From Deltaproteobacteria bacterium (GTDB lineage: Bacteria > Desulfobacterota > Desulfobacteria > Desulfobacterales > JAUWMJ01), in contig DAOWEJ010000070.1 of NCBI GenBank assembly GCA_030638575.1, forward strand, positions 1-35,741: a stretch of DNA of 35,741 bases. The letters are read 5' to 3'. The notes under the pieces are model-generated. The model was not told where the DNA came from. It was given only the letters and a program-made list of their open reading frames with translations, and did no database searches. Both the position numbers and the translations under genes were made by a program. Below, one piece after another: positions 5,417-35,250 of this stretch (positions within the stretch are counted from its first letter, which is position 1; every line of letters starts with the position of its first letter).

Positions 5417-5472
5417 GGTTAAGTAGTTGAGTTGGAAAATTATCAATACCTTAACAACTCAACTACTTAACC
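5417..5472. repeat. 18-bp perfect inverted repeat of octamer words
   Basis: The arms GGTTAAGTAGTTGAGTTG (5417-5434) and its exact complement (5455-5472) are separated by 20 bases. The arms consist of the octamer word GTTRAGTR seen elsewhere in the window. The element lies between the pilY1-like stop and the next start and would form a strong hairpin in RNA. There is no T-run, so it is not a classical terminator. Confidence 0.85.
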
Positions 5473-8011: not shown

Positions 8012-8168
8012 GAGCGCTTCGCTTGAAGATCACTACGTTCGAGGAGCGCTTCGCTTGAAGATCACTACGTTCGAGGAGCGCTTCGCTTGAGGATTATGGT
8101 TTTAAGCCTCAAGAACGTAAGTGCGCTCTTCAAAGCCCGAAGGGCTGGTCTTAAAACGAAGTGCTCAC
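8012..8168. repeat. Minihairpin array A, mirror-symmetric, between convergent genes
   Basis: A 32-bp unit beginning GAGCGCTTCGCTTGAAGA is repeated exactly twice (8012-8043, 8044-8075) plus a half copy (8076-8091). Each unit is two 16-mers, one containing AGCG-CTT-CGCT. From 8106 the units run in the opposite sense (for example GCCCGAAGGGC), so the left and right halves can also pair with each other. The array fills the gap between two convergent genes (stops at 8008 and 8175). Confidence 0.85.
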
Positions 8169-9326: not shown

Positions 9327-9526
9327 GTTAAGTGGCTAAGTAGTTGAGTGGTTGAGTAGTACCGTATGAGCAGGCTCGTTTCGGGTGTACAGGCATGCCA
9401 TTCCAAGCGAAGCGAGATATCTTTTTTTTTCAATAGATTACTGGCAAGATCTCCCCTTGGCCGAAATAACAGACCTTTTCGTTCAGACAATAACCACTTA
9501 ACAACTTAACCACTCAACGACTTAAC
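9327..9526. repeat. Long inverted repeat of GTTRAGTR octamers
   Basis: The gap 9286-9651 holds four octamers at 9327-9359 (GTTAAGTG, GCTAAGTA, GTTGAGTG, GTTGAGTA) and the inverted counterpart at 9492-9526. They bracket about 130 bases in which no convincing gene is seen; one AAGCGAAGCG word near 9398 resembles the minihairpin arrays. The short open frame across this region is repeat-derived and is not called. Confidence 0.75.
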
Positions 9527-9584
9527 AATGACTAAATATTAGCCTGGTTAACAGTTATTTGTCAAGCTTTTCAATTTTGTAAAA

Positions 9585-13883: not shown

Positions 13884-13921
13884 TTTTCTTTTTTTTTATC
13901 TTTTTTAATGGTTTTTTAGAA

Positions 13922-14080
13922 GAGCCTGTTTCAAAACGTTTCAGTTTGTTCAAGTTCAAGGAAGGCGAAAATTTTAACCACAGGAATACATGTAGTATTT
14001 CGAGGATTAAAATTTGAGCCTGACGCAGAAATTGGGCAGATAAGCGCAGACTTCGAAATGGGACGTTTTGAAATTGGCTC
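13922..14080. mobile_element. MITE-like element copy 1 (variant ends)
   Basis: 159 bp. The ends GAGCCTGTTTCAAAACG and CGTTTTGAAATTGGCTC are near-perfect inverted repeats, but GAGCC replaces the GAGACC of the other copies. The interior shares the family core (GTTCAAGGAAGGCG, ATTTCGAGGATTAAAATTTG, GAGCCTGACGCAGAAAT). It is flanked by AGAA on both sides, a possible 4-bp target duplication. Confidence 0.7.
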
Positions 14081-14091
14081 AGAAGTTTATT

Positions 14092-16919: not shown

Positions 16920-17411
16920 AGTCTTCCGTTTATTATTTTCAAGGCGAAAAAGGCCGATAAGTGCTAAACCTATTGCATCTGAAGCATGGTAAGGCCTGAT
17001 AGGTGTTGACAGGTTTAACAAATGTCGAACAGCTTTTTCAAGCTGAATTTTGCTTGCATTGCCGTTTCCGGTTAAAACTTGCTTGGCCTCACGCACAGGA
17101 ATTTCTGTTACCGGCACGTTAACCTGACATCCTGCAAGAAGAATAATACCTGTGACCTGCCCTAATGTAATTCCAGACTTTGGATACTTTGGAAGGGAAA
17201 ATACATCCTCTACAACCATAAGGTCGGGTTTTTCATCCTTCAAAAAGGATAGAAGCTTTGAGTAGATTTGATCGAGGCGGTTTGGCAAAGGGATGTTGTT
17301 TGGAGTATTAATAGTGCCAAAGGAAAAACCATAGACTTTAAGCCCGGTTCCCCTGACAATTCCAACACCGGTTGCAGCCAGGCCAGGATCTATGCCGATG
17401 ATCTTCATCAT
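16911..17411 (-). CDS. ruvC: Crossover junction endodeoxyribonuclease RuvC
   Basis: This 166-residue protein has the RuvC start KIIGIDPGLAATGVG (first catalytic Asp), VVEDVFSLP (Glu), and HASDAIGLALIG (C-terminal acidic pair). It resolves Holliday junctions with RuvAB. Two ATGs in a row open the frame (17409-17411 and 17406-17408); the second fits the known family start better and leaves 7 bases to an AAAGG. That AAAGG and the bases up to the first ATG belong to a MITE-like element. The C-terminus ends in a repeat-derived V-M. Confidence 0.97.
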   Translation of the reverse strand: MMKIIGIDPGLAATGVGIVRGTGLKVYGFSFGTINTPNNIPLPNRLDQIYSKLLSFLKDEKPDLMVVEDVFSLPKYPKSGITLGQVTGIILLAGCQVNVPVTEIPVREAKQVLTGNGNASKIQLEKAVRHLLNLSTPIRPYHASDAIGLALIGLFRLENNKRKTVM

Positions 17412-17570
17412 GAGACCTTTGCAAAACGTCCCCTTTTGGCAGATTTCTGCGTTGGGCTCAATTTTTAATCCTCAAAATACTCAATGTATTCCTCCGGTTA
17501 AAAATCTCGTCCGCCTTGAACCATGCCAGATAAGCGGAGACTTCGAAATTGAACATTTTTCAAAGGTCTC
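17412..17570. mobile_element. MITE-like element copy 2, abutting the ruvC start codon
   Basis: 159 bp. The ends GAGACCTTTGCAAAACG and TTTTTCAAAGGTCTC are inverted repeats. The interior has the family core in the reverse sense relative to copy 1, including AATCCTCAAAATACTCAATG and CTTCGAAATT. The flanks ATCAT and ATAAT match at four of five bases. Confidence 0.75.
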
Positions 17571-17667
17571 ATAATCATGCACTCATTGCCGGTTTCCTGT
17601 TAATAGATACCCGATTTTAAGTAGTAATTGCATCTGAAACACAGTTTTCGGTATCCGGCATCAAGAT

Positions 17668-20478: not shown

Positions 20479-20484
20479 TAAATT

Positions 20485-20573
20485 AGCTCATAGTTCACAG
20501 CTTATAGCTCACAGTTCATAGCTCATAGAATAAAGGATTTAATCATTTAACTATCAGCTATCAGCTATGAGCT
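20485..20573. repeat. Heptamer repeats in inverted arms inside the tol operon
   Basis: Bases 20485-20528 hold six heptamers of the type GCTCATA/GTTCACA. Bases 20549-20573 hold the complementary type (CTATCAG, CTATGAG). The arms can form an imperfect hairpin between tolA and tolB, with no T-run on either side. Confidence 0.75.
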
Positions 20574-20581
20574 GTTATCAC

Positions 20582-22691: not shown

Positions 22692-22778
22692 AACACCTAG
22701 CAACCCGGCGATCATAGCATTCCAAGCGTTAGATCCGTGGTTTTGCGCCGCCGCTTTTCAGCGGGTTTGCCTTTTTTA
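22692..22778 (-). promoter_or_regulatory. GEMM-I (cyclic-di-GMP class I) riboswitch candidate
   Basis: On the minus strand the element starts AAAAGGCAAACC, then a CCGCT-GAAA-AGCGG hairpin (GAAA tetraloop), then GCGCAAAACCACGG, then a second stem closed by GATC...GATC containing UCUAA and UAUGA strands like a tetraloop receptor, and ends GCCGGGTTGCTAGG. This order is that of GEMM-I. By the usual numbering position 20 is G, which fits cyclic-di-GMP better than 3',3'-cGAMP, and the stacking A47 is kept. Departures: the block usually GGGACGCAAAGCC here reads GCGGCGCAAAACC. Identification is by eye; a covariance-model scan would settle it. Confidence 0.75.
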
Positions 22779-22784
22779 TGCATA

Positions 22785-26547: not shown

Positions 26548-26629
26548 GAAATTCTGAAATAGTTCGCAATTCCGTTTTCCTATCAAGAGCATAAGCACTA
26601 ACTTAATGTTTCCGCATTTCCTTCCTTTA

Positions 26630-26771
26630 GAGACCTTTGCAAAACGGCACTTTTTGTCCGATTTCTGCGTCAGGCTCAAATTTCAATCCTCGAAATATCC
26701 TATATATTCCTGTGGTTGAAATTTTCGCCTTCCTTGAACTCGAACAAAAATTACCTTTTTTCAAAGGTCTC
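26630..26771. mobile_element. MITE-like element copy 3, with 5-bp target duplication
   Basis: 142 bp. The ends GAGACCTTTGCAAAACGG and TTTTTTCAAAGGTCTC are inverted. The element is flanked on both sides by CTTTA, a 5-bp direct repeat. The interior carries AATCCTCGAAATATCC, CTGTGGTTGAAATTTTCG and CCTTGAACTCGAACAAAA. Confidence 0.85.
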
Positions 26772-26776
26772 CTTTA

Positions 26777-26806
26777 AAAAGGGGGCAACTTTGGCTCCCC
26801 TTTTAT
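26777..26806 (+). terminator. Intrinsic terminator downstream of sdhB
   Basis: AAAAGGGG (26777-26784) pairs with CCCCTTTT (26797-26804), followed by ATTAAA. The MITE-like element sits between the sdhB stop and this hairpin, so the transcript may read through the element. Confidence 0.65.
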
Positions 26807-26897: not shown

Positions 26898-26985
26898 TTG
26901 ATGAGCGTCCGCCTGCGGTGGCCATGAAGAGCGGACTAACGCTCTTTATGGCTAAAACTTTAATCCTCAAACGAAGCCCTCGGCT
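26898..26985. repeat. Degenerate minihairpin array
   Basis: The stretch contains GATGAGCGTCCGCCTGCGG and GAAGAGCGGACTAACGCTC in the sense seen in the other arrays, then CAAACGAAGCCCTCGGC. The spacer words (GATGAGC, GAAGAGC) are kept but the stems have decayed. Confidence 0.5.
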
Positions 26986-27023: not shown

Positions 27024-28115
27024 ATGGAAAAATGGCATGCATATTTTGATCAATTCATAGCAGGCTATGCAGCGGAGACGACTTATATGCATATTTTCAT
27101 TAAAGCAGCAGTAGCCGTGGCAGGTACATTTATTGTCTGGTTTATTTTAAAAGGTATTATAAATCTGTTTGAAAAAAGAATTAAAAAGAGCGGTATTTTG
27201 CATATAAACACTCAAACTTTCCTTGTAATCCGAAAAGTTCTTTCTTATGCCTTAATTCTTGTAACCGGTACATATCTGATCAGGCTTTTCAATATACAGC
27301 TTATTGAAAATATTTATCATGCGATTTTAATTGTAATCCTGGCCTCTCCGGTTAACGAATTTTTTATAATTTTTATAAAATATCTTGAAAAGAATCTGGC
27401 CGATAAAACAGATACCAAGATAGATAATGTTATTTTTGATCTTTTAAAAAAATTCGCAGGCGCCATTATCTATATAACTGCAGTAATTATCGCTCTTGAT
27501 ATGTTAGGCGTTAATGTTATGCCGTTTATTGCCGGTGCTGGTGTTGCAGGTATAGCCATAGGTTTTGCCGCTAAGGATACGTTGTCGAATCTTATCGCAG
27601 GTGTATTGCTGATTGTCGATCGGCCCTTTGAGGTAGGTGACAGGATCGAAGTATGGACCGCTCCATCCGGCAGTGCGACCTGGGGCGATGTTCTAGATAT
27701 CGGGCTGCGTGCGACAAAAATTAAAACAACCGATAATATCGTAATCGTTATTCCCAACAACGAAATAATGAAGCGGGATATAATAAACTACACCATTATT
27801 ACGTCTAAAATCAGGGTTCGCGTTAATATAGGGATTGCTTATGATGCGGATATGGAAAAGGCAAAAGAGTTGATTATAAAGGTGGCCGATTCCGCCGAAT
27901 GGATAGCAAAAGATCCGGCTCCCAAGGTAGTTGTGAGAAATTTCGGGGACTCTTCAGTCGATCTACAGCTTCGGGTCTGGATTAATGATGCAAGGAAAAG
28001 GATGGATACAATTTCCTATGTCACGGACAACATAAAAACATTGTTTGATAAGGAAGGGGTAGAAATACCATATCCGAAAAGGGATATTTTTATTAAACAT
28101 GAGAAAAGCGACTAA
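27024..28115 (+). CDS. MscS-family small-conductance mechanosensitive channel
   Basis: This 363-residue inner membrane protein has about four hydrophobic helices. The pore helix and beta domain are clear: FIAGAGVAGIAIGFAAKDTLSNLIAGVLLIVDRPFEVGDRIEV, then GDVLDIGLRATKIKTTDNIVIVIPNNEIM, ending IPYPKRDIFIK. Members open under osmotic down-shock. AAAAGGTG lies just before the ATG. It is monocistronic; no partner gene is evident. Homologues with additional N-terminal helices are common in the family. Confidence 0.93.
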   Translation: MEKWHAYFDQFIAGYAAETTYMHIFIKAAVAVAGTFIVWFILKGIINLFEKRIKKSGILHINTQTFLVIRKVLSYALILVTGTYLIRLFNIQLIENIYHAILIVILASPVNEFFIIFIKYLEKNLADKTDTKIDNVIFDLLKKFAGAIIYITAVIIALDMLGVNVMPFIAGAGVAGIAIGFAAKDTLSNLIAGVLLIVDRPFEVGDRIEVWTAPSGSATWGDVLDIGLRATKIKTTDNIVIVIPNNEIMKRDIINYTIITSKIRVRVNIGIAYDADMEKAKELIIKVADSAEWIAKDPAPKVVVRNFGDSSVDLQLRVWINDARKRMDTISYVTDNIKTLFDKEGVEIPYPKRDIFIKHEKSD

Positions 28116-28176
28116 AGTGAATAAAGCTTTAATTTAAAAGGCTGAAGGCAAAAAGCAGAAGATATATGATTGATGG

Positions 28177-28322
28177 AGGAGCGCTTTGCTTGAAGACCGT
28201 TCCCTTCGGGAACTTGATGAGCGCTTCGCTTGAAGCTTAAAGGCCGAAGGCCGCTCTTCAAGCCACGCAGTGGCGCTCCTCAAGTCCTGAAAGGACGCTC
28301 TTCAAACCCTTTGTGTTTGAAA
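28177..28322. repeat. Minihairpin array B with variable stems, between convergent genes
   Basis: The left part has units in the GAGGAGC/TTGAAGA sense (AGCGCTTTGCT, GTTCCCTTCGGGAAC, AGCGCTTCGCT). From about 28240 they switch to the opposite sense: GGCCGAAGGCC, GCCACGCAGTGGC, GTCCTGAAAGGAC, each followed by the constant GCTCYTCAA. Stems differ from unit to unit but always pair. The array lies between the convergent mscS-like and murI genes. Confidence 0.85.
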
Positions 28323-28354
28323 GCAAATTGGTTAAGGTTTAGACGGTTAGGTGT

Positions 28355-29134
28355 TTATACTTTTTCAAGTTTTACATTCCTTTTTAAAACAGCTTTTGCT
28401 GTTTTTTCAAATTGAGGGGTTATATCTGACACAAAAAGACTGAATTTTCCGTTTTTACTCAATTTATTTTCGATATCTTTATTTGTTTTAAGAAAATCCT
28501 TTACTTTCTCTGCAACTCCGGCAGAAGAGTCTATGATATTCACACGTTTCCCGATTTTATTTTGTATGATTTTTTTTAAAAGCGGATAATGGGTGCAACC
28601 TAAGATAAGCGTGTCTATCTGCCTGGTTTTAAGTGGATGGAGGTATTTTTTAACAACCATTGAAGTAACAGGCTTTTTAAGCCACCCTTCTTCCACCAAC
28701 GGAACAAGAAGGGGGCAGGCAGTAGAATAGACCCTGGCATCGGGATTTATTTCAAGAAGCTTTTTTTCGTAAATGCCGCTTTGTATTGTGGCGCGGGTTC
28801 CTATGACTCCAATACTAAGCTTTTTAGAACTTTTAAGGGAAAGCTCCACAGCAGGCGTAATAACTTCAAAAATCGGAAATTTGTATTTTTCAACAACCCT
28901 TTCAGTCGCAATACTTGAAGCAGTATTACAGGCCATCACGATTATTTTTGCTCCTTTTTTTAAAAGAAAATCGGTATTTTCAAGGGCGTATCTGATAACG
29001 GTTTCAGGGCTCTTGGTACCGTAAGGAGTACGTGCGGTATCGCCAAAGTAGATAATATCATAGCCGGGAATCTGCTCCATAAGAGCCCGCATGACAGTGA
29101 GTCCGCCTATTCCTGAATCGAAAATTCCAATCAT
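28355..29134 (-). CDS. murI: Glutamate racemase
   Basis: This 259-residue protein is full length. It starts IGIFDSGIGGLTVMRALM and contains the two catalytic-cysteine segments ACNTASS and LGCTHYP, plus YFGDTARTPYGTKSPE. It makes D-glutamate for peptidoglycan. It is transcribed alone, converging with the mscS-like gene; the minihairpin array B covers its 3' flank. An array (C) covers the region upstream. Confidence 0.97.
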   Translation of the reverse strand: MIGIFDSGIGGLTVMRALMEQIPGYDIIYFGDTARTPYGTKSPETVIRYALENTDFLLKKGAKIIVMACNTASSIATERVVEKYKFPIFEVITPAVELSLKSSKKLSIGVIGTRATIQSGIYEKKLLEINPDARVYSTACPLLVPLVEEGWLKKPVTSMVVKKYLHPLKTRQIDTLILGCTHYPLLKKIIQNKIGKRVNIIDSSAGVAEKVKDFLKTNKDIENKLSKNGKFSLFVSDITPQFEKTAKAVLKRNVKLEKV

Positions 29135-29164: not shown

Positions 29165-29212
29165 GAGCGCTTCGCTTGAAGAGCACTACGTTCGAGGAGC
29201 GCTTCGCTTAAG
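29165..29212. repeat. Minihairpin array C, three 16-mers
   Basis: Three 16-base units follow without spacers: GAGCGCTTCGCTTGAA, GAGCACTACGTTCGAG and GAGCGCTTCGCTTAAG. The array lies in the divergent gap upstream of murI. The remainder of the gap to 29374 shows no other clear feature. Confidence 0.8.
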
Positions 29213-29374
29213 GAAAAACGTTTTAAGCTTTAGGCAATAAGTTTTAAGTATTTGATAAAACAGACAATAACATTAGCCTAAAACCTAAAACATGATAAAT
29301 TTGACTTTTTACAACTTCATCGTATATAAGCAGTTATTTTTATTTACAAGGGAAATAATACGAAGGAACAACAG

Positions 29375-29659: not shown

Positions 29660-29661
29660 TC

Positions 29662-29826
29662 GAGACCTTTGTAAAACGTCCTCTTTTGTCCGATTAGCGC
29701 TAAAGCTTCACTAAAGTGCCTGTGTCAGGCTCAAATTTTAATCCTCGATCCGCCTCAGGCGGACCTGTGGTTAAAATTTGAGCCTTCCTTGAACTCGAAC
29801 AAAACTGAACATTTTTCAAAGGTCTC
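29662..29826. mobile_element. MITE-like element copy 4, with inserted minihairpin
   Basis: 165 bp. The ends GAGACCTTTGTAAAACG and TTTTTCAAAGGTCTC are inverted. The interior has AATCCTC followed by GATCCGCCTCAGGCGGA, which replaces the AT-rich segment seen at that place in copy 3. An extra stretch TTAGCGCTAAAGCTTCACT is present near 29695. No target duplication was found. Confidence 0.75.
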
Positions 29827-29927
29827 GCCCCATCTAATGCCTGATAGCTGCGTTGTCCAGCCTTATAGGCGGGACGCCTTGCTCTCAAGCATGATCTGGG
29901 GTTCTAAAACCGGTTCTATCCATTTCC

Positions 29928-29972
29928 TATCAGCTATGAGCTATGAACTATCAGCTAATATCTATCAGCTAT
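29928..29972. repeat. Heptamer repeats overlapping the 3' end of the YkgJ-type gene
   Basis: Six or more CTATCAG/CTATGAG heptamers run from 29928 to 29972. The stop codon and the last five residues (IADRY) of the minus-strand gene lie inside them. The gap 29827-29954 shows nothing else but a weak minihairpin near 29869. Confidence 0.7.
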
Positions 29973-30344
29973 TTTCTCAGCCACGAATTCCTTAACTACG
30001 CTGTCAGGGACATCCGTACGAATTCCAGGGCATACTGAAGCCATGATGTGCCAGTTGTTAATATCAACAAGCACACTCTTTATAAAAGGCCATGCTTTAC
30101 ACATATATGGTTTAACCGGATGAATCATGCAAAGTTTGTCCCAGAATATACAATACCCGTTTTCATCCTGAGCCAGAACGGGCTTACCTCCTGACAACCG
30201 GCAGTACTTTGCAGTAAAAGATTTAACATCCATATTCACATATTCTGCTATAACCTTAACATCCTTTTCGGATAAAAAGGTTCCGCCGTAGCCATTACAG
30301 CAGTCCCCGCATTTTTTACATTGAAAAAGAGAATCAGACAACAT
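29955..30344 (-). CDS. YkgJ-family CxxCxxCC cluster-binding protein
   Basis: This 129-residue protein has the defining N-terminal motif CKKCGDCCNG, plus later cysteines (GYCIFW, KLCMIHPVKPYMCKAWPF, SVCPG). Members of this family are thought to bind zinc or an iron-sulfur cluster; the function is unknown. It overlaps recR by 11 bases, so it is probably in the dnaX-ybaB-recR transcription unit. The C-terminal five residues come from the heptamer repeat at 29955-29972, so the native end may have been longer or shorter. Confidence 0.88.
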   Translation of the reverse strand: MLSDSLFQCKKCGDCCNGYGGTFLSEKDVKVIAEYVNMDVKSFTAKYCRLSGGKPVLAQDENGYCIFWDKLCMIHPVKPYMCKAWPFIKSVLVDINNWHIMASVCPGIRTDVPDSVVKEFVAEKIADRY

Positions 30345-34298: not shown

Positions 34299-34449
34299 GA
34301 GCGCTTCGCTAAAAGAGTGCTTCGCTTGATGAGCGCTTCGCTTTAGGGCTTAAATCCGCCGCAGTCGGATGCTCCTCCAGGCCGAAGGCCGCTCTTTAAA
34401 GCCCGGAAGGGCTGTTCCTCAAGTCACGAAGTGACACTCCTCCAGGCCT
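34299..34449. repeat. Minihairpin array D with variable stems
   Basis: Three 16-mers (GAGCGCTTCGCTAAAA, GAGTGCTTCGCTTGAT, GAGCGCTTCGCTTTAG) are followed, in the opposite sense, by GGCCGAAGGCC, GCCCGGAAGGGC and GTCACGAAGTGAC, with CTCYTCMA-type spacers. The array lies between the methyltransferase and DciA-like genes. Confidence 0.85.
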
Positions 34450-35061: not shown

Positions 35062-35071
35062 GTATAACAGA

Positions 35072-35223
35072 GAGACCTTTGAAAAACGGTAATTTTTATT
35101 CGAGTTCAAGGAAGGCGATCCGCCTCAGGCGGATCAACCACAGGAATATATGGAATATTTCGAGGATTGAAATTTGAGCCTGACGCAGAAATCGGGTAAA
35201 AAGTGCCGTTTTTCAAAGGTCTC
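35072..35223. mobile_element. MITE-like element copy 5, with ACAGA target duplication and inserted minihairpin
   Basis: 152 bp. The ends GAGACCTTTGAAAAACGG and CCGTTTTTCAAAGGTCTC are perfect inverted repeats. The element is flanked by ACAGA on both sides. The interior holds GATCCGCCTCAGGCGGATC in place of the AT-rich segment found in copy 1. It ends 27 bases before the hflK start. Confidence 0.88.
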
Positions 35224-35250
35224 ACAGAAACGAATATACAGGTTAATACT

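Follow-up and report, generated by a model that had tools for sequence, protein, structure and literature searches.

Our preferred reading, held with moderate confidence, is that element B is one copy of a mobile, non-coding, intergenic palindromic family of Desulfobacterota that is kept for DNA hairpin formation. The halves of each hairpin stem change together and the linkers and hairpin tips stay constant, suggesting that the folded DNA itself is the object preserved. Element B and its sister copies were located in a stretch of 35,741 nucleotides, the whole of which we refer to as the window.

The repeat unit of the family is a hairpin plus a 9-base spacer (GCTCNTCAA), and hairpin and spacer alternate along each of two arms of opposite orientation, which point outward around a short core (Table 1). 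The initial annotation of this DNA had described the hairpin units, their sequence and their coordinates accurately, but as simple arrays, in place of the two opposite arms around a core found in each element; its interval, 28177-28322, captures the element and cuts the outermost spacer, which begins at 28174. The spacer is constant, as had been proposed, but the form GCTCYTCAA is too narrow, because position 5 among 443 segments is C in 278, T in 104, A in 55 and G in 6. The two arms usually differ in hairpin size, which is 7 nt in one (GCGAAGC, ACGTAGT) and 11-19 nt in the other; the 7-nt arms often alternate GC and AC stems with a period of 16 nt. Because the arms are oppositely oriented around the core, the left arm reads as TTC/TAC loops on the + strand. 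Element C is a partial element (one half), in which a long arm is not recognisable. The second inverted-repeat family listed in Table 1, with its GAGACCTTTGNAAAACG-like ends, looks like a MITE-like family.

Table 1. Hairpin elements, neighbouring genes and other repeats or motifs of the window (units are given in outward order for element B)
Feature	Position	Strand	Composition	Setting or remark
Element B (studied copy)	28174..28305		left arm, core, right arm	between convergent genes
Element B, left arm	28174..28229	-	GCGAAGC, GCTCATCAA, GTTCCCGAAGGGAAC, GGTCTTCAA, GCAAAGC, GCTCCTCCA	outward from 28229
Element B, core	28230..28241		TTGAAGCTTAAA (12 nt)	separates both arms
Element B, right arm	28242..28305	+	GGCCGAAGGCC, GCTCTTCAA, GCCACGCAGTGGC, GCTCCTCAA, GTCCTGAAAGGAC, GCTCTTCAA	outward
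MscS gene	ends 28115	+		left of element B
Asp/Glu racemase gene	28355-29134	-		right of element B
Element A	8012..8166		two arms, core	between convergent genes
Element A, left arm		-	five 7-nt units, GCGAAGC/ACGTAGT in alternation	
Element A, right arm			AGCCCGAAGGGCT, then ACGAAGT	
Element C	29165..29228	-	short arm GCGAAGC, ACGTAGT, GCGAAGC	
Element D	34299..34444		short arm (- strand), core TTTAGGGCTTAAA, long arm (+ strand)	
Element D, long-arm hairpins		+	TCCGCCGCAGTCGGA, GGCCGAAGGCC, AGCCCGGAAGGGCT, GTCACGAAGTGAC	
Degenerate element	26898..26970		one long hairpin clear	spacers mutated
c-di-GMP-I riboswitch	22696-22781	-		73 bits
Second dispersed inverted-repeat family	13913-14084, 17403-17575, 26621-26780, 29661-29827, 35071-35224		~120-170 bp, ends like GAGACCTTTGNAAAACG	copies up to 94% alike
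Degenerate short tandem/inverted repeats	5417-5472, 9327-9360, 9491-9528, 20484-20578, 29924-29975		TTAAGTGGTTGAG and AGCTATCAGCTATGA type	intergenic

We evaluated stem pairing on segments, each being the DNA that separates one spacer from the next (with no more than one mismatch per spacer); as the segments were delimited by spacers alone, pairing played no part in their choice. The 443 segments, drawn from approximately 22 genomes and two viral contigs, contain 42 distinct stem sequences, and 374 of them are fully paired, compared with 142 ± 8 after swapping of the 3' arms. In the first segment set, facing positions were 96% Watson-Crick, compared with 71% after exchange of 3' arms among equal-length segments. 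The covariation score of 50 distinct 13-nt hairpins was 0.700 (0.263 ± 0.026 when shuffled, and 0.055-0.156 with a slid partner); cells with both sides changed numbered 60 against 18.7 ± 3.7, a value as high in none of 500 shuffles, with the reservation that these cells are not independent events because the stem counts include units related by copying. In nineteen pairs of long-hairpin types the loop is identical and the difference is a single whole base pair; the whole-pair changes among these types include transversions (C-G to A-T, C-G to G-C). The joint change of the two arms that had first been noticed in the window is therefore upheld in the larger set, and genome-wide the arms are paired rather than random.

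The hairpin tips follow a rule of their own. The GAA-type loop named in the initial annotation is present, although not exclusive, and the general form is GN(N)A: read on the outward strand of both arms, the loops of fully paired units are GN(N)A in 315 cases and TN(N)C in 5 (183 versus 0 in short arms, 132 versus 5 in long arms), counts that take in units copied by descent, so that shared descent could explain part of the constancy. Any base can stand in the middle of GNA (A 221, C 56, T 48, G 6). The pair closing a GNA loop is C-G in 266 cases, T-A in 25, G-C in 2 and A-T in 0, with C-G and T-A together making up 291 of 293. Extraordinarily stable DNA minihairpins have been described as combining a loop of the GNA or GNNA type with two or more G-C pairs, and the published melting temperature of d(GCGAAGC) is 78 C (PMC4686876). 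The loop part of this rule (GNA/GNNA, C-G closure) describes the family well, 315 of 374 fully paired units being GN(N)A; the stem part holds for GC and long stems but not for the AC stem (one A-T and one C-G pair), which is the commonest 7-nt stem, with 121 of the 374 fully paired units. Segments of 7 nt with 2-bp stems form the majority (229 of 443). Such hairpins are predicted to be unstable as RNA (+2.0 to +3.7 kcal/mol) and also as DNA (+1.2 to +2.0 kcal/mol); because the energy tables carry no bonus for DNA GNA loops, minihairpin stability is taken from the literature, which covers the GC stems and not the common AC stem.

The joint change had been ascribed either to selection for the hairpin or to copying, with one arm serving as the source for rewriting its partner, two causes that do not exhaust the matter, module replacement (considered below) being a third route. 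Rewriting without selection would amount to template-switch correction, in which a polymerase switches at an imperfect hairpin and rewrites one arm, so that stems stay perfect though unused. Template switching at imperfect hairpins is a documented process (PMC8794818, PMC8604942) that can achieve transversions such as those observed in one event, and mismatched stems are indeed rare, some of them resembling fresh point changes or half-and-half chimeras (AGCCC..GGGAT, GTTCC..GGGAT). Inter-strand switching, however, inverts loops, contrary to the near absence of TN(N)C; 2-bp stems leave little room for switching; and neutral correction does not predict the modest excess of G-T over A-C among single-departure units (24 versus 10 on the outward strand; two-sided P ~0.02, uncorrected for multiple looks). 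Nor would arm copying alone lead one to expect a constant GN(N)A loop with a pyrimidine-purine closing pair. We therefore favour selection for the DNA hairpin and regard correction without selection as a rather unlikely account, while correction may contribute to stem maintenance.

The elements are intergenic and most abut a gene. Convergent genes flank 8 of 21 elements with callable neighbours; among intergenic regions of 120 bp or longer the figure is 25 of 190 (P = 0.007). Divergent genes flank 2 of the 21. Gene calling relied on a simple longest-ORF criterion, so single neighbour assignments are approximate. This setting, with its nearness to stop codons, suits RNA-level elements, whose arms would be transcribed at gene ends and whose hairpins would act by stabilising the 3' ends of mRNA, halting transcription or binding a protein, in line with earlier proposals for REP and repeats of that type. 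Tolerance of G-U pairs in RNA from the outward strand would likewise account for the excess of G-T over A-C, and each strand of element B gives a better fold than shuffled sequence does. Yet the loop and G-T preferences hold for the outward strand of each arm, and thus for opposite strands of one element, so that any one transcript would have one of its arms in the wrong orientation: a single RNA would show GNA loops in only one arm and TNC loops in its partner, which points to DNA, and to the individual unit, as the object preserved. The fully paired tetraloop units are mainly GTCA/GCCA, which satisfy DNA GNNA but, being mostly GNYA, not RNA GNRA, and the 2-bp hairpins are predicted to be unstable as RNA. 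We found no promoter and, in 28080-28420, no intrinsic terminator (G+C-rich hairpin plus T run), and an Rfam search over the arrays at gathering and relaxed thresholds gave no family match, all families falling below threshold; the readings of the element as an Rfam RNA family, a promoter or a terminator were rejected accordingly. Taken together, a role at the RNA level appears distinctly unlikely.

Folding of both strands beyond shuffled expectation is shared by a further model, in which the element makes one long fold. Through arm inversion the left spacers (TTGARGAGC) are complementary to the right spacers (GCTCYTCAA), and their pairing would make a central stem from which the hairpins branch sideways at four-way junctions. 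Between spacers of equal rank, however, there are 754 Watson-Crick cells, compared with 760 ± 6 when shuffled, and position 5 varies independently; unit numbers are often unequal between arms, and the predicted folds lack a consistent fishbone shape. Because left and right spacers do not covary, the long central stem is unsupported; we rejected the fishbone as a conserved structure and judge the long fold highly improbable.

The genome of the window (G000) is represented by a 2.31-Mb assembly that is 76% complete, and all assemblies used here are metagenomic and partial. In G000 the pattern GCGAAGCGCTC occurs 51 times, compared with 0 for the reversed control pattern, so the arrays are neither confined to the window nor an artefact of it, a possibility that had been raised at the outset; spacer pairs 7-17 nt apart number 36 versus 0 in the control. 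Approximately 515 kb of G000 chosen around spacer matches yielded 30 two-armed elements and six further stretches yielded more arrays, whereas three untargeted stretches (48.7 kb in total) contained none. The total for G000 is approximately 36 or more elements or array sites, intergenic and with inverted arms. Scanning one genome per species with GCTCNTCAANCGNAGNGCTCNTCAA across 84,980 species, we obtained 74 matching stretches, limited to Desulfobacterota-type genomes: their titles are of the types Desulfobacteraceae, Desulfobacterales, Desulfatiglandales, Syntrophaceae, Deltaproteobacteria and Ca. Desulfatibia vada, and one title reads Pseudomonadota only. In a sample of the phylum, 32 of 297 genomes had a spacer-pair match, many of these being chance matches without a hairpin; other families nevertheless hold genuine paired arrays, with quite different stems (GGGCCGCAGGCCC and GGCTGAAAGCC among others) and a spacer that is nearly always GCTCCTCAA. 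Several hairpin arrays of the family studied here are also present on two IMG/VR contigs, IMGVR_UViG_3300009431_001314 (L141; terminase and capsid genes) and IMGVR_UViG_3300035128_000120 (L142; terminase gene), which are likely phages. Element B itself had no match among GenBank phage records and PLSDB plasmids, and no relative of its neighbouring racemase was found in viral contigs. A search of the open-access literature turned up no description of the hairpin-array family, an outcome that does not prove the family undescribed.

Comparison of G000 with its relative G002 (JAUWOH, CSMAG_2445) points to gain and loss of elements. At one orthologous site G002 holds different elements (L256 and L254) where G000 reads through (L040 near 12121); at another an element in G002 (L250) is absent from G000 (L047 near 17982); and further orthologous sites show likely gains or losses. 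No target-site duplication was evident at the empty orthologous sites. Among copies within one genome, L036 and L050 are 95% identical over 142 bp, and element B is 82% identical to L046 over 199 bp. Judged from sequence comparison, these filled and empty sites and near-identical copies support a REPIN-like mobility of the inverted unit. The arrays on the two likely phage contigs also speak for mobility of the family. The two G002 contigs concerned, C367 (L254) and C409 (L256), share gene context and site with different array elements; flanks and element together are 86% alike, and the pair represents either paralogues or mixed strains.

Where a site is shared, its units turn over. Of eight sites examined in G000 and G002, seven have a recognisable two-armed element in both species and the eighth (L139/L031) has a reduced one; flanks are 74-93% identical and hairpin units differ wholesale. 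L053/L164 is an example: the core can still be recognised (GGACTAACGTCC versus GGACTAAAGTCC) and both arms have changed in the members and number of their units. Whole hairpin units are thus exchanged, gained and lost at orthologous sites, so that module replacement accounts for much of the joint change from site to site. A sequence of 30-odd nt (GCTTGYC..GGCGTAGCC..GGCGAAG.C), itself composed of GNA hairpins, lies in a hairpin tip at 9 of the 12 places where it was found (tip loci L146, L163, L165, L139, L160, L241, L250, L255 and L104; outside arrays, L053 and L068), and the orthologous pair L031/L139 has the same stem with and without it.

The mechanism that we propose for the preferred reading starts from the outward strand of each unit, which would fold into a C(GN(N)A)G minihairpin when the DNA is single-stranded or negatively supercoiled, with extrusion envisaged as in phage N4 hairpin promoters. 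A putative DNA-processing enzyme would read the hairpin tip and spacer and not the stem sequence; because it would ignore that sequence, stems could drift freely so long as they remained paired, and recombination between copies would let arms grow and be reshuffled. A benefit to the cell, such as gene-end marking or supercoil uptake, is speculative. More tentatively, and with considerable doubt, we suggest phylum-wide mobile DNA in which an enzyme reads the C(GN(N)A)G tip plus GCTCNTCAA, ignores the stem, and builds or reshuffles arrays in the genomes of bacteria and phages, a second small element also being inserted into tips in a targeted way. Y1 transposase genes are present nearly throughout the order, whether arrays are many or few, and stretches around Y1_Tnp matches in G000, G001, G002 and G031 contained no arrays, a provisional result for G000, which is 76% complete; the G001 Y1 protein resembles IS200/IS605 TnpA by motif.

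Known bacterial palindromic repeats are recognised by stem or foot; in the present family the stem sequence is unconstrained, and conservation extends only to pairing, tip and linker. The family therefore provides a natural test of whether small DNA hairpins arise and are put to use in living cells outside phage promoters, a place to part selection from template-switch correction by using close strains, and a marker for poorly cultured sulfate reducers and their phages.

Among known systems, the promoters of the phage N4 virion RNA polymerase are also small DNA hairpins with 3-nt loops, a sheared G:A loop pair and variable stems; they extrude at sub-physiological supercoiling, and the non-conserved bases of their stems matter for pairing only (PMC4496689). 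N4, however, has three single promoters and one polymerase, whereas the present elements are arrays with a putative reader, and no promoter was found. The family resembles the stable minihairpins d(GCGNAGC)/GNNA in loop rule, in C-G closure and in having GCGAAGC as a common unit; those are known mainly as a physical property or laboratory tool, and here they would be modules dispersed through genomes, many of them having longer or AC stems. The double-hairpin elements of fungal mitochondria are small, mobile- or selfish-looking palindromes, and we know of no GCTCNTCAA spacer in the organelle palindromes of fungi or Volvox. Both are likened to the present family by description, and both reside in organelle genomes, unlike this bacterial and phage family. 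The palindromic repeats of Volvox organelles (PMC2670323) are likewise small and of selfish or mobile appearance. REP, BIME and REPIN sequences are short, intergenic, non-coding palindromes in inverted pairs or clusters with compensatory changes, and REPINs are mobile (PMC3116915, PMC3733652). Like them, the family consists of many-copy, inverted, extragenic palindromes that are present or absent between related genomes. It differs in that the linker is constant and the stem free, with multi-unit arms that have a short and a long side; the GTAG or CGTC foot of REPs occurs in 0 of 443 units, the feet here being TCAA and GCTC, and no association with RAYT was found, so that we rejected a RAYT/REPIN link and did not file the family under REP/REPIN. 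The best reading is of a family REP/BIME-like in kind and distinct from the GTAG/CGTC REPs.
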